From: Alkalidesulfovibrio alkalitolerans DSM 16529
GTDB taxonomy: Bacteria > Desulfobacterota > Desulfovibrionia > Desulfovibrionales > Desulfovibrionaceae
Direction of reading: 5' to 3'
DNA length: 64,000 bases
NCBI RefSeq assembly: GCF_000422245.1
Contig: NZ_ATHI01000005.1
Span: forward strand, 269,946-333,945
Under the pieces are notes generated by a model. It was not told the DNA's origin. It saw only the letters and a list, made by a program, of their open reading frames with translations, and ran no database searches. The position numbers and the translations under genes are program-made. Shown here piece by piece: positions 7,221-11,062 of the stretch. Numbering within the stretch: the stretch's first letter is position 1; every line of letters starts with the position of its first letter.

Positions 7221-7727
7221 TTAGCGTGGTTGTATGTGTCCCCCGGCGCGGCGGCACGGGGAGGGGCTGGCTTCGGGTCCTGCGGCGCAGGCGCGGCATG
7301 TCCCGGTGAGCTTGACTTGGACGTGCTCGGCGCGAAAGCCTGTGCCCGCGTCGGCCAGGCCCGCGATGTCGAACCCCTCGGGCAGATCGACATCCTCGAT
7401 GCGGCCGCAGACGCGGCACACGAGGTGCGCGTGCGGCTCGTCCGTGCGGCCGTCGAAGCGGCGCTCGTGGCCGAGGTCGAGTTCCTGGATCACCCCGGCC
7501 TGGATCAGGCTGTTCAGGGTGTTGTAGACCGTGGCCTTGCTCATCCAGGGCAGTTCCAGGGCCGCGCGGGCATGCACCGATTCGGCGCTCGGATGCGAGG
7601 AGTCATCGGCCAGGAGGCGCACGATGGCCTCTCGCTGCGGCGTGACGCGAAGCCCGCTTCGCCGCATGCACTCGATCATCCGGCCTGCCCGGCCCTGAGT
7701 GGTGTTTTCGTGCGTGGTCTGGTTCAT
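7221..7727 (-). CDS. perR: Fur-family transcriptional regulator, PerR-like
   Basis: 168-residue Fur-superfamily repressor. Winged-helix DNA-binding domain about 20-95 (LRVTPQREAIVRLL, SKATVYNTLNSLIQAGVI). The C-terminal dimer domain contains the His-rich PHAHLVC metal region and two CxxC zinc pairs (CRVCG and CRAC). Start chosen as ATG 7725-7727; an upstream in-frame ATG at 7751 falls inside the operator and lacks a ribosome site. Immediate linkage to rbr and the palindrome at 7750-7772 support a peroxide-responsive, self-regulated PerR. The Arg/Pro-rich 20-residue C-terminal tail (CAAGPEASPSP onward) is unusual. PerR rather than Fur or Zur is inferred from context. Confidence 0.88.
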   Translation of the reverse strand: MNQTTHENTTQGRAGRMIECMRRSGLRVTPQREAIVRLLADDSSHPSAESVHARAALELPWMSKATVYNTLNSLIQAGVIQELDLGHERRFDGRTDEPHAHLVCRVCGRIEDVDLPEGFDIAGLADAGTGFRAEHVQVKLTGTCRACAAGPEASPSPCRRAGGHIQPR

Positions 7728-7749
7728 GTCGTGCTCATTTGTTGGATTC

Positions 7750-7772
7750 ATTCTAAAATAAGAATGATTCTT
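7750..7772 (-). promoter_or_regulatory. Fur/PerR-type operator ahead of perR-rbr
   Basis: Two overlapping palindromes: ATTCT-N6-AGAAT at 7750-7765 and AAGAAT-G-ATTCTT at 7760-7772. AT-rich 6-1-6 repeats overlapping each other are the usual shape of Fur-family boxes. It sits 23-45 bp ahead of the chosen perR start, consistent with autoregulation. Confidence 0.75.
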
Positions 7773-8148
7773 GTCAACAACTTTTTGAAAAAAGAGCGGC
7801 TTTTTTCTTCCGGAGCGTTTTAGGCAAGGCATCATCGCGCAATTTATGAATAAATTTCCGCACATCCAAAAAAGTGAGAAAGGTCGAAAAAAGGCGGCTC
7901 GTCCCGCGAACGATGGAGGTGCTTCCTTGGAGGATCGGTCGTGGTCCTGGGTAAAGGCTCGTCCGTGCATATTGGTGACGAGGCGCGCGGCATTCCCGCC
8001 TTGACCGCCCTCCCCCGCCCGGTTTATGGATTTTCCCCGCTTTCGCCCTGGGGCGGAATCGGTGTAGCATGCCCCATCGGCCTTCCCGAGGCGGCAAAAT
8101 GGCACCCCAGGCCGCTCCGGTCGGGAATGCCGCCGCGCCAAACCATAC
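7773..8148. other. Intergenic region between perR and tRNA-Arg
   Basis: About 375 bp with no convincing gene on either strand. It contains an AT palindrome at 7787-7807 (GAAAAAAG-agcgg-CTTTTTTC), the promoter side of perR, and presumably the tRNA promoter near its right end (a TTGACC at about 8001 has no good -10). Nothing else recognised. Confidence 0.5.
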
Positions 8149-8225
8149 GCGCCCGTAGCTCAGGTGGATAGAGCAGGAGCCTTCTAAGCTCTTGGTCGGG
8201 GGTTCGAATCCTCCCGGGCGCGCCA
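8149..8225 (+). tRNA. tRNA-Arg (anticodon UCU)
   Basis: 77-nt tRNA including encoded CCA. Acceptor stem GCGCCCG/CGGGCGC, D arm GCTC-loop-GAGC, anticodon stem GGAGC/GCTCT with loop CTTCTAA (anticodon TCT, reads AGA), T arm GGGGG-TTCGAAT-CCTCC (one G-U pair), discriminator G. AGA is rare in the neighbouring GC-rich genes. Confidence 0.97.
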
Positions 8226-8236
8226 CGCCATCACAA

Positions 8237-8280
8237 TGCAGGCGTTTCTGTGAACACGGAAACGCCTGCATTTATTTTTT
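8237..8280 (+). terminator. Intrinsic terminator after tRNA-Arg
   Basis: Stem TGCAGGCGTTTC / GAAACGCCTGCA (12 bp, 10-nt loop) followed by TTTATTTTTTA. It ends tRNA-Arg transcription and isolates it from the radical SAM operon. Confidence 0.92.
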
Positions 8281-8338
8281 ACGCTGCCAAATGGGCAGCT
8301 TCATTACCAGAAGAATACATCACGTTCCTCAAATTTCT

Positions 8339-8366
8339 TTGACGAAGACAGTTATTAATGTATAAT
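8339..8366 (+). promoter_or_regulatory. Sigma-70-type promoter for the radical SAM/peptide operon
   Basis: TTGACG (8339-8344), 16-bp spacer, TATAAT (8361-8366). It is one of the best consensus matches in the window and lies in a conspicuously AT-rich stretch. It points at the gene starting at 8436. Confidence 0.8.
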
Positions 8367-8397
8367 ATCTTACAATAATAGTGCCTATATACGCACC

Positions 8398-8422
8398 ATA
8401 AAGCATGTTCATCATGCTTTAT
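8398..8422 (+). promoter_or_regulatory. 10-bp inverted repeat in the 5' leader of the radical SAM gene
   Basis: Perfect inverted repeat ATAAAGCATG-ttcat-CATGCTTTAT, 31 bp past the -10 box and immediately ahead of the ribosome site GGGAGA (8425-8430). It could be a repressor operator or an mRNA hairpin controlling initiation. No T-run follows, so it is not a terminator. Confidence 0.65.
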
Positions 8423-8435
8423 ATGGGAGAAAATC

Positions 8436-9761
8436 ATGTTCCCATTCAGCCATGAACAATTTCTACCATGCACACTTCAAGAACTCATAGAAGTCCGCGA
8501 GAGACTCCCATTTGCCGATGTCCACGCCCCGCTCCATCTTACAGACGATATGGATGCATATGAATTACACTCGGGATTTCTCGTCGAAGGAAGCCAGGGT
8601 GTCTTCTGCGTTTCGTCTTTGCGTCTGCTCCGGGAAGCAAGTTCTGGAAAAAGCGCGCATGAAATCGCACGATCCCCAGACGACCTCACAGAGCTCGAAC
8701 ACCTCCATAGATACGGCGTCATCAGAACCGGAAACGGTGGCAGCGGAAAATTGATCACCCATGAGGCTGGGAACGAGTTTTCACGGTTGTATGAGAATCG
8801 GAACCTGACGTGGTTCTCCTACATTCCGCAGAAGATCGAGATGGATATCACCACAAAGTGCAACCTGCGATGCATTCATTGCTCCCGGGAGGCGTCTCCG
8901 GAGGCAAGGCAGGGAAGCATGACGCTTGAGGACTACATCCGGATTATCGAACAAGCTGCGGAAATCGGCGTACCGAACTTGACGGTCATGGGAGGAGAAC
9001 CCACCACCCATCCCGAATTCATCGAACTGGCCCTGATCGCGCGAGTGGCCGGGGTCAAGAGCCTTTCGACGAGCACGAACGGCTGGCTGGTCGACGCCGC
9101 GCTGGCGCACAAGATGGCCCGTCTTTTCGGATCGGTCCAGGTCAGCCTGCACGGCGCGAAAAGCGCGACGCACGACGCCATTGTCGGTCGCAAAGGCGCA
9201 TTCGAGCGCGCGGTGCGCGCGCTTTCGCTGTTGCGCGACGAGGGCGTGGCCTCGCTGAACATCTCCTTCTCGGTCATGCGACAAAACGCGACCGAGATTT
9301 CGGCCATGGTCGAACTGGCCAAGGATCTGGGCATAACCGAACTGCGCTTCCTGGTGCTCACCCCCGAGGGTAGGGCCCTGAACCTTTCGACCTGGGGCGA
9401 GGACGAAAAACGGGAAATCGCCGATCAGCTTGGCGGCTTGCGCGTGGCCTTCGGCAACTGCGTGGACATAAGCGCGGGCGGTTTCCCGCCCTACGACGGC
9501 ATATCGAAGACAGCCGCGTTCTACGGCTGCCCGGCGGGAAGAAACCTGCTCTACATAGACGCGCAAGGCCGCGCCAAGCCTTGCCATTGCACCGGCATCG
9601 ACCTCGGCGACGTTCGCGAATCCCCCTTGCTTGATCTGTGGCACAGCAAACCAATGCAATCCTTGCGTTCCAGACTCGATTGCTGCGAATACAGTCAGGT
9701 CTGCGCTGGGGGCTGTCTTGGCAATGAGGAATGGCTGCAAAAATTCTTTCACCATGCATGA
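8436..9761 (+). CDS. Radical SAM/SPASM enzyme, probable peptide maturase
   Basis: 441 residues. Residues about 35-100 resemble a PqqD/RRE-type winged-helix peptide-recognition domain (GVFCVSSLRLLREA, HRYGVI), though the match is weak. The radical SAM core has KCNLRCIHC (Cys 142, 146, 149) and the SAM-binding MGGEPTTHPE. The C-terminal SPASM region includes GCPAG, PCHC, CCEYSQVC and AGGC (Cys 416-427 among them), which would hold auxiliary 4Fe-4S clusters. Such enzymes install crosslinks or epimerise residues in ribosomal peptides. Start ATG has GGGAGA eight bases upstream. The stop is 10 bp before the Cys-repeat peptide gene, its likely substrate. I do not recognise a named subfamily. The 5' third is more AT-rich than its neighbours, suggesting transfer. 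Confidence 0.88.
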   Translation: MFPFSHEQFLPCTLQELIEVRERLPFADVHAPLHLTDDMDAYELHSGFLVEGSQGVFCVSSLRLLREASSGKSAHEIARSPDDLTELEHLHRYGVIRTGNGGSGKLITHEAGNEFSRLYENRNLTWFSYIPQKIEMDITTKCNLRCIHCSREASPEARQGSMTLEDYIRIIEQAAEIGVPNLTVMGGEPTTHPEFIELALIARVAGVKSLSTSTNGWLVDAALAHKMARLFGSVQVSLHGAKSATHDAIVGRKGAFERAVRALSLLRDEGVASLNISFSVMRQNATEISAMVELAKDLGITELRFLVLTPEGRALNLSTWGEDEKREIADQLGGLRVAFGNCVDISAGGFPPYDGISKTAAFYGCPAGRNLLYIDAQGRAKPCHCTGIDLGDVRESPLLDLWHSKPMQSLRSRLDCCEYSQVCAGGCLGNEEWLQKFFHHA

Positions 9762-9771
9762 GGAGGACAAG

Positions 9772-10071
9772 ATGGACGCAAGAATGGAAATGGCGGTTCG
9801 CGACATCATTCGCGAGGAGTTCACGCGCCTGCGCAACTCGCTGACAGGCGTGCCGGGCGGCCTGGCATCGGACTGCGGATGCTTCTACGACCAGGGATGT
9901 TGTCGCGACCAAGGGTGTTGCAACGACAAAGGATGCTGTGGGCAAAAGAACCTCGGCAAGCTCGACGAACTCACATCGGGCCGGTTCGACGTTCTGCAGG
10001 AATTCATTCTCTCCAACAAGGAACCGATCATCAAGTTTTTCAAGGAGCGCGGCGTAGAGGTCAATCTTTAG
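9772..10071 (+). CDS. Cys-repeat peptide, candidate substrate of the adjacent radical SAM enzyme
   Basis: 99-residue peptide. I chose ATG 9772 because AGGAGG lies at 9761-9766 with a 5-nt spacer; an upstream ATG at 9754 would overlap the maturase stop. Residues 1-30 form a charged amphipathic leader-like stretch ending GVPGG. Residues 35-56 hold all eight Cys (35, 37, 43, 44, 49, 50, 55, 56) within three tandem six-residue units, YDQGCC-RDQGCC-NDKGCC. Residues 60-99 are a Cys-free helical tail. Unlike typical RiPP precursors, the Cys core is central, not C-terminal. Alternatives are a metal-binding protein or a partner that is not modified. No family recognised. Confidence 0.8.
   Translation: MDARMEMAVRDIIREEFTRLRNSLTGVPGGLASDCGCFYDQGCCRDQGCCNDKGCCGQKNLGKLDELTSGRFDVLQEFILSNKEPIIKFFKERGVEVNL
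9886..9939 (+). repeat. Three tandem 18-bp coding repeats (GCC motif)
   Basis: Units 9886-9903, 9904-9921 and 9922-9939 encode xDQGCC, xDQGCC, xDKGCC. The units differ at synonymous positions (TGT/TGC, CAG/CAA, GGA/GGG), so the protein repeat has been maintained after duplication rather than copied recently. Confidence 0.85.
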
Positions 10072-10195
10072 CGCAATCCCCACGACATCCGACAGCCCAT
10101 GTTCTGCCGGGAGCGAAGCGTCCGCGAACCTGTTGCGCGGTCCACGCGCCATATTTTTGCGCCCACACGGGCGAACCAGGAACGCGGTGTGAAAA

Positions 10196-10238
10196 AACGG
10201 CCGCCCTGGATTACTCCGGGGCGGCCGTGTGTTTTCTC
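10196..10238 (+). terminator. Terminator after the Cys-repeat peptide gene
   Basis: Stem ACGGCCGCCC (10197-10206) / GGGCGGCCGT (10219-10228), 12-nt loop, followed by GTGTTTTCTCTC. A-run on the left side (GAAAAAACGG) makes it usable from the minus strand too, where it could end the RDD gene at 10345. Confidence 0.85.
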
Positions 10239-10244
10239 TCCAGA

Positions 10245-10286
10245 GATTTCGCGCCTGGGATTTCGCGCCTGGGATTTCGCGCCTGG
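10245..10286. repeat. Three perfect tandem copies of a 14-bp unit
   Basis: GATTTCGCGCCTGG repeated three times without mismatch, in the 3' intergenic space between the peptide gene terminator and the RDD gene. No coding function. It looks like a simple slippage-prone microsatellite. Confidence 0.9.
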
Positions 10287-10344
10287 GCGGCACTCGCGGG
10301 CTCATGTCCCGCCTTGATGCGTGTGGCGCGTGTGCAGCGGTCTG

Positions 10345-10836
10345 CTAGTCGGGCCTGCGCACCACCAGGGTCCCGGCGATGTAGTCGTGCAGGGCCTGCT
10401 TTCTGGGCGTGAAGGCGGCCATGAGGTAGCCCAGCAGGAAAATGAGGCCGGAAAGCAGCTTGCCGAAGTAGCGCAGCGTGGCGCGGCCAAAGCTCAGCCG
10501 CCGCCCGTCCATGTCCGTGACCACGATGCCCATCATCCGCTTGCCGAAGGTGGCCTGGTGGGCCGACGACTCCTGCAGGGCATAGTACCCCCAGGAAAGG
10601 CACAAGGCGATGATCATGCCCATGGTGTCGTCACGCGTCAGTTCCTCGCCGCTGACGTTCTCCACGCCGCCGAAGTCGAGGAAATAGGTCAGCGCGAACG
10701 TCACGACGAACAAAATTCCCTGGTCCGCGATGTAGGCCCCCAGGCGCTGCATGAAACTCGCGTATCCGCCGTTGCGCCCGGCTTCCGCCGCGCGCCGCGC
10801 CTTCAATTCTTCCCAGCCGTCGTCGTTCCTGTCCAT
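10345..10836 (-). CDS. RDD family membrane protein
   Basis: 163-residue integral membrane protein. Features of the RDD domain: GAYIADQGILFVV early (Arg/Asp of helix 1), GYYALQESSAHQATFGKRMMGI in the middle, and a final hydrophobic pair ending in the LHDYIAGTLVV motif. About three to four transmembrane segments. ATG start at 10834-10836; an open frame continues upstream but is not conserved-looking. Function of RDD proteins is mostly unknown (ion transport has been shown for some). It stands alone, convergent with the peptide operon. Confidence 0.82.
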   Translation of the reverse strand: MDRNDDGWEELKARRAAEAGRNGGYASFMQRLGAYIADQGILFVVTFALTYFLDFGGVENVSGEELTRDDTMGMIIALCLSWGYYALQESSAHQATFGKRMMGIVVTDMDGRRLSFGRATLRYFGKLLSGLIFLLGYLMAAFTPRKQALHDYIAGTLVVRRPD

Positions 10837-11062
10837 CGAGCCTCCCGTGGGCGGCCAAAGCCTCGCGGCCCGGCCCTGATCCGTCAGGATATAGGCCCCA
10901 AGCCCATGCGAACGCAAGCCCCGCGCGGCCCGAAACCCACGATTCGCCGCTTTGCGGCCACGGCGGCCCGTCTCCCCGCACACTCGCGGCGGAAGGCCGT
11001 TTTCAGCGTCATGAGCACGGCGGGCATTGCCAAAACGCCCGGCTGCCGCCATAGTGCGGCCC

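Follow-up and report, generated by a model that had tools for sequence, protein, structure and literature searches.

Radical S-adenosylmethionine (SAM) enzymes that combine a SPASM domain with a recognition element (RRE) for ribosomally synthesized and post-translationally modified peptides (RiPPs) are modifiers of peptides, as described in PMC8326336. In the sactisynthase SkfB and the ranthisynthase CteB, an auxiliary cluster has an open site that is able to bind a substrate thiol; the same source describes Cys-Asp bonds in freyrasin, a Cys23-Asn20 beta-thioether in NxxcA, and the formation of a C-C bond by SuiB (PMC8326336). Ranthipeptide and sactipeptide radical SAM clusters are already known in archaea from genome mining, according to PMC12144867. 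Here, we describe a candidate relative of these systems in a 64,000-nucleotide stretch of Alkalidesulfovibrio alkalitolerans DSM 16529 (contig NZ_ATHI01000005.1), hereafter the window. It consists of an open reading frame for a 441-residue radical SAM/SPASM enzyme (8436..9761, + strand) and a gene for a predicted substrate peptide of 99 residues (9772..10071, +), whose ATG at 9772 lies 10 bp past the enzyme stop. This two-gene cassette recurs in archaea and bacteria. Our favored interpretation, to which we give roughly even chances, is that the enzyme binds the neighboring peptide and joins its Cys residues by C-S bonds to acids three positions away. No description of this enzyme-peptide pair was found in the literature searched, which covered few subscription journals.

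Comparison of loci shows that the two genes travel together. Besides the window, we considered ten loci: six from a scan of a genome collection, one from a Methanosarcina genome, one distant archaeal locus, and two viral matches. A GCC-repeat peptide adjoins the enzyme in all six loci with at least 42% enzyme identity (the window, two Methanosarcina metagenome-assembled genomes [MAGs], a 5.75-Mb Methanosarcina genome, a Thermodesulfobacteriota MAG, and Magnetovibrio) and in none of the five loci with more distant enzymes. In these six (the window, L004, L005, L006, L008, and L022), the peptide carries the motif GC-x4-GC with D/E/N at -3, and its gene always lies within about 0.4 kb of the enzyme gene, downstream in bacteria and upstream in Methanosarcina. 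Flanking genes differ between loci, with L004 and L022 alike as judged by eye, so the common cassette would be the enzyme and peptide genes alone. In one Methanosarcina locus (L008:8001-9340), two overlapping frames together make up the enzyme, and the adjacent peptide gene is intact; the split reflects either an assembly error or a decaying gene.

Both genes are rare. Among 59 genomes of the genus, family, and order, enzyme and peptide were each found in one, the window's own, and the enzyme occurred in 1 of 395 genomes of the phylum. Peptide searches matched 1/59, 3/185, 1/395, and 1/297 genomes, and the enzyme adjoins the peptide in all six. The sequence-only reading of this DNA had linked the enzyme to GCC peptides, and it was to be doubted if such peptides proved common without the enzyme. 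Both expectations hold, with the qualification that two distant full-length relatives of the enzyme, L007 (35% identity) and L023 (31%), have no ladder motif (described below) nearby within the DNA examined, a point that weighs against our favored interpretation. The motif is likewise absent from L009, L010, and L011, which are partial enzyme matches at 24-33% identity. These pairing counts cover the searched genomes; peptides known only as proteins (e.g., P0003) and most of the 27 enzyme matches come without neighbor data. Plasmid and viral carriage were considered and rejected: plasmids gave no peptide match and three partial enzyme matches at 24-29% identity, while viral sequences gave two partial enzyme matches (24 and 27%) and no peptide (none of 167 pattern matches was confirmed).

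The substrate candidate is unusual in its regularity. The window peptide has Cys at positions 35, 37, 43, 44, 49, 50, 55, and 56, confirming the earlier placement of all eight within residues 35-56. When its residues were shuffled, three GCC units arose in 0 of 200,000 trials and all eight Cys fell within 22 residues in 10 of 200,000. Because shuffles rarely reproduce this arrangement and the same design recurs in other genomes, we take it to exceed chance. A family search with seven query peptides recovered 31 proteins, all at E values of 6.3e-11 or lower and including the window's own peptide and that of L006. In an alignment of 34 rows, mean pairwise identity reached 0.63 in the core and was lower in the leader (0.25), linker (0.30), and tail (0.37). 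None of the 34 peptides scored above a Pfam or NCBIfam cut-off, the best chance matches having E values of 0.008 and 0.015; the match of the window peptide to adenylate kinase (E = 0.0081, 15.8 of 373 bits) was taken as chance.

What the 34 peptides have in common is a ladder in which Cys alternates with an acidic residue every three positions. In the window peptide, it spans residues 34-56 (D34, C37, D40, C43, D46, C49, D52, C55; 9871..9939, +). The ladder Cys are kept at 37, 43, and 49 in 34/34 rows and at 55 in 33/34. Asp, Glu, or Asn stands at -3 of these four Cys in 27/34, 34/34, 32/34, and 29/33 rows and at +3 in 34/34, 32/34, 30/34, and 24/33; such residues are seldom found at offsets of 2 or 4, with 0-7 rows at +4. 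The sequence-only reading had treated the GCC units as the key feature. They are present, in peptides of bacterial loci as three GCC together with a CxC or CxxC and in others as four GCC, yet in the alignment the triplet is only one variant of the broader ladder. In peptides of the Methanosarcina type, DCGC is followed by two GCC, by EGKC, and by a GC further on; since their first and last rungs keep the spacing without GCC units, the ladder looks like the feature under selection. One peptide of this type, P0043, is labeled bacterial (Candidatus Sulfotelmatobacter).

Outside the core, the peptides vary more. The Cys-free tail of the window peptide (residues 71-99; 9982..10068, +) is predicted to be helical: a weak model (mean predicted local distance difference test [pLDDT] score of 57 overall, 67-76 in the tail) places helices at 72-81 and 83-92 and leaves the core without structure. 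Magnetovibrio peptides keep the core and lack the usual tail. Some proteins in the family share the length of their longest contig: P0003 and P0032 (225,119 bases each) and P0057 and P0059 (3,585 bases each). Two different GCC peptides with equal longest contigs suggest tandem substrate genes in some genomes.

The enzyme has several features expected of a peptide maturase. It passes the Pfam models for radical SAM (PF04055; 85.7 bits against a cut-off of 29.5) and SPASM (PF13186; 35.4 against 21.5), and together with a predicted RRE these are among the features of the RRE-bearing radical SAM/SPASM peptide maturases. The RRE-like winged-helix region covers residues of about 34-110 (8535..8765, +), with strands predicted within 32-59 and helices within 63-92. 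The sequence-only reading had called this N-terminus weakly RRE-like; the enzyme model aligns there with SkfB (from residue 37) and SuiB (from residue 34), though Pfam RRE and PqqD models do not match. A beta3-alpha3 winged helix is thus present by prediction only. Named families fit poorly, and the alignment within a named non-peptide family that would have refuted the sequence-only reading did not appear: the best 25 of 84 NCBIfam matches all fell far under their cut-offs, and the sactipeptide maturase models StsB (98.9 of 625 bits), SkfB (sporulation killing factor; 77.2 of 300), and AlbA (73.9 of 850) were not reached. A viperin-like defense identity (pVip) was rejected because the match, at 59.3 bits, covers model positions 2-151 of 257 and enzyme residues 134-286 only.

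Cluster-binding residues were compared in an alignment of 20 rows. Nineteen of the 27 enzyme protein matches entered it; P0004 was kept out as a copy of the window's enzyme, and P0006, P0018, P0020, P0024, P0028, P0029, and P0030 on account of length or divergence. The CxxxCxxC radical SAM motif (C142, C146, C149; 8859..8882, +) is invariant in 20/20 rows. Among the SPASM Cys (C365, C383, C416, C417, C423, and C427; 9528..9716, +), five are kept in 20/20 rows and C423 in 19/20. The canonical SPASM set comprises seven Cys, of which six are conserved here, and seven of the 20 rows carry a further Cys near the C terminus whose place is not conserved. A separate observation concerns residue 12 (window 8469-8471), the Cys of an N-terminal E-Q-x-x-P-C motif ahead of the RRE, which is kept in 20/20 rows and is possibly a cluster ligand.

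These features suggest a mechanism. The RRE would hold the leader or tail of the peptide, a 5'-deoxyadenosyl radical would abstract hydrogen from an acid side chain, and an under-ligated auxiliary Fe-S cluster would present the Cys thiolate. The ladder could acquire as many as four small rings, in the simplest case at Asx-x-Gly-Cys, where Cys would be joined to the beta carbon of the -3 residue as in NxxcA. We infer a thioether synthase because the seventh SPASM Cys is not conserved and the substrate is Cys rich and acid spaced, with Fe-S ligation read from sequence. In SuiB, the streptide maturase, the clusters are described as fully ligated in PMC8326336, in contrast with the window enzyme family and its lack of a conserved seventh SPASM Cys. 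The Cys23-Asn20 bond of NxxcA has the -3 spacing of the ladder (PMC8326336). The thioethers of sactipeptides run from Cys to an alpha carbon, and those of ranthipeptides to a beta or gamma carbon. Ranthipeptides such as freyrasin (PapA/PapB), SCIFF (CteA/CteB), and NxxcA resemble the window system in their Cys-rich substrates; they differ in that peptides of the window type match no named precursor model above cut-off. Freyrasin has CX3D spacing, as opposed to the +3/-3 spacing of the ladder. The definition of SCIFF, six Cys in forty-five residues, does not describe a peptide with eight Cys in 22 residues, and no NCBIfam precursor model recognized any of the 34 peptides.

Several observations weigh against acids at -3 as the partners. 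The ladder arises in part from a 6-residue repeat, in which -3 and +3 can be separated at the ends only, and the ends disagree: at the last rung, an acid precedes Cys in 29/33 rows and follows it in 24/33, while at the first rung the figures are 27/34 and 34/34. C37 is without D/E/N at -3 in 7/34 rows, and P0032 and P0052 carry Ala and Val at -3 in two of their four units. Near-copies among the 34 rows (e.g., P0032/P0052, L022/P0031, and L008/P0033) mean that the counts are not independent and are inflated. The late Cys in 7/20 enzyme rows could serve as a cluster ligand. On the other hand, the first GCC of P0003 is preceded by an Asp that has no Cys ahead of it, which favors -3. Finally, the Gly before Cys is conserved more strictly than the acid (1.00 for both G42 and G48, against 0.89 for D40 and 0.61 for D46), which favors a Gly acceptor.

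That last point leads to a sactionine version of the chemistry, in which Cys would bond to a neighboring unit's invariant Gly at its alpha carbon and the acids would serve recognition or metal binding. G42 and G48 are invariant in 34/34 rows, the closest solved match to the enzyme is the sactisynthase SkfB, and glycine is among the sactipeptide acceptors according to PMC8326336. We nevertheless regard this version as unlikely: in Methanosarcina-type peptides the Gly of the last unit shifts (EGKC), while an acid remains at -3 in 29/33 rows. The likeness to the SkfB system is also limited on the substrate side. SkfA is unlike the window peptide, with its eight-Cys ladder and C-terminal tail.

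Alternatively, the enzyme could act elsewhere, with the peptide an independent small protein that travels along. The enzymes of L007 and L023, without such a peptide in the DNA examined, fit this idea, as does another small open frame at the L007 enzyme. That frame (L007:6401-6748, in Candidatus Aegiribacteria) encodes 116 residues at the enzyme end, has no Pfam match, is not Cys rich, and could encode an alternative substrate for this branch of enzymes. We consider an independent peptide very improbable in view of the pairing found in archaea and bacteria alike and in both gene orders, the peptide's absence from searched genomes without the enzyme, the RRE-like domain predicted in the enzyme model, and a correlation between enzyme and peptide distances. 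The correlation calls for caution. Half of the pairs tested were inferred only from equal length of the longest contig in both protein lists. Of the eight such lengths common to the two lists, one comes from a near-identical duplicate of the window pair (P0002, P0004), one from L006, and five are suggestive only. The test excluded L008, whose enzyme is broken, and the fragmentary 1792 pair. The eighth length, that of pair 2858, is discordant, its peptide being 97% like a Methanosarcina one and its enzyme 51%, and may be a chance match; the rise to r = 0.86 on dropping it is after the fact. Smaller sets of pairs are weak: 324/10,000 permutations for the five locus-verified pairs, 430/5,000 for five Methanosarcina-type pairs, and 611/5,000 for the four others. 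In an enzyme tree of 28 rows, paired enzymes do not form one clade and are not cleanly separated from unpaired ones. One group (89/79, unstarred) unites L007 and P0029 with P0023 and the Magnetovibrio pair, which makes a change of partner in this branch possible.

The fate of the product bears on a further explanation. As judged by eye from the open frames, no transporter or protease is linked to the window pair, in agreement with the sequence-only reading, and no protease or exporter gene is common to the six loci; the product is therefore probably retained intracellularly. Within each CC pair, the second Cys would probably be free or metal binding. It is conceivable that metal binding is the whole purpose, with the eight thiols holding a metal or an Fe-S cluster and the enzyme epimerizing, oxidizing, forming a C-C bond, or helping to load the cluster. 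The constancy of eight Cys in 23/34 peptides (range, 6-10) despite varying arrangement, the Methanosarcina hosts, and the lack of a shared exporter or protease speak for this account. We find it doubtful, since simple metal binding needs no SPASM-class maturase and the strict Cys/acid spacing matches, to our knowledge, no known metal motif. Thioether formation along the ladder could also be combined with metal binding in a new RiPP class, in which one enzyme zips the ladder into up to four small thioether rings, the row of free Cys holds metal or carries electrons in the cell, and the cassette moves between bacteria and methanogenic archaea as a cofactor system that is complete in itself and includes neither protease nor exporter. 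We advance this fuller picture tentatively, as a rather unlikely possibility.

The local signals named by the sequence-only reading, from promoter-like site to terminator, are all present, and the two genes share one promoter-like site and one terminator-like stem. The predicted promoter, TTGACG-16-TATAAT (8339..8366, +), has 11/12 consensus matches; four sites of that quality occur in 7500-11000, compared with a mean of 0.9 in shuffles. Downstream of the -10 element, in the predicted 5' leader, lies a 10-bp inverted repeat, ATAAAGCATG-TTCAT-CATGCTTTAT (8398..8422, +), a candidate hairpin or operator whose RNA folds with a z-score of -2.2 (4/200 shuffles fold equally well). No inverted repeat of at least 8 bp precedes the pair in L005, L008, or L022, and L004 and L006 have different ones; not being common to other loci, the repeat is no defining part of the cassette. 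A riboswitch was rejected, as the tRNA alone reached its Rfam gathering score. An AGGAGG ribosome site for the peptide gene (9761..9766, +) touches the enzyme stop. A terminator-like stem of 14 pairs, 11 of them G-C, follows 125 bp past the peptide stop (10197..10228, +); seven terminator-like sites were detected against a mean of 3.8 in shuffles. Just past it, at 10242-10283, a 14-bp unit resembling GATTTCGCGCCTGG occurs three times in tandem.

The pair sits between a tRNA-Arg (TCT) gene (8149..8225, +; ARAGORN and Rfam), followed by a terminator-like stem also listed as an inverted repeat (8235..8272, +), and an RDD-family gene on the opposite strand from 10345 onward. Third-position G+C is lower in the pair (0.68 and 0.73) than in seven neighboring genes (0.84-0.94). 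The RDD region was compared in three relatives. Both borders are visible in one same-genus genome (L030), on which the slot comparison rests, the RDD pieces of the other two containing no tRNA. In L030, one side has the same tRNA-Arg together with genes for rubrerythrin and Fur, the RDD gene lies 4.3 kb on, and a PIN-domain gene, an iron-alcohol-dehydrogenase-like gene, and further open frames come between. The tRNA-Arg/RDD space (window 8225-10345; L030:1300-5640), with different genes in each genome, is possibly a hotspot for insertions. The direct repeats of 8100-10700 include no att repeats and no tRNA-derived repeats flanking the pair. Foreign composition, the variable slot, and absence from the searched relatives point to gain of the pair beside the tRNA by horizontal transfer.

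The candidate enzyme and substrate described here form a defined, testable pair, and the substrate is unusually regular. Crosslinking of the ladder would give a thioether topology not found in the literature searched, built by one enzyme and common to archaea and bacteria. If the ladder instead forms a metal site, the product would be a peptide-derived intracellular cofactor.
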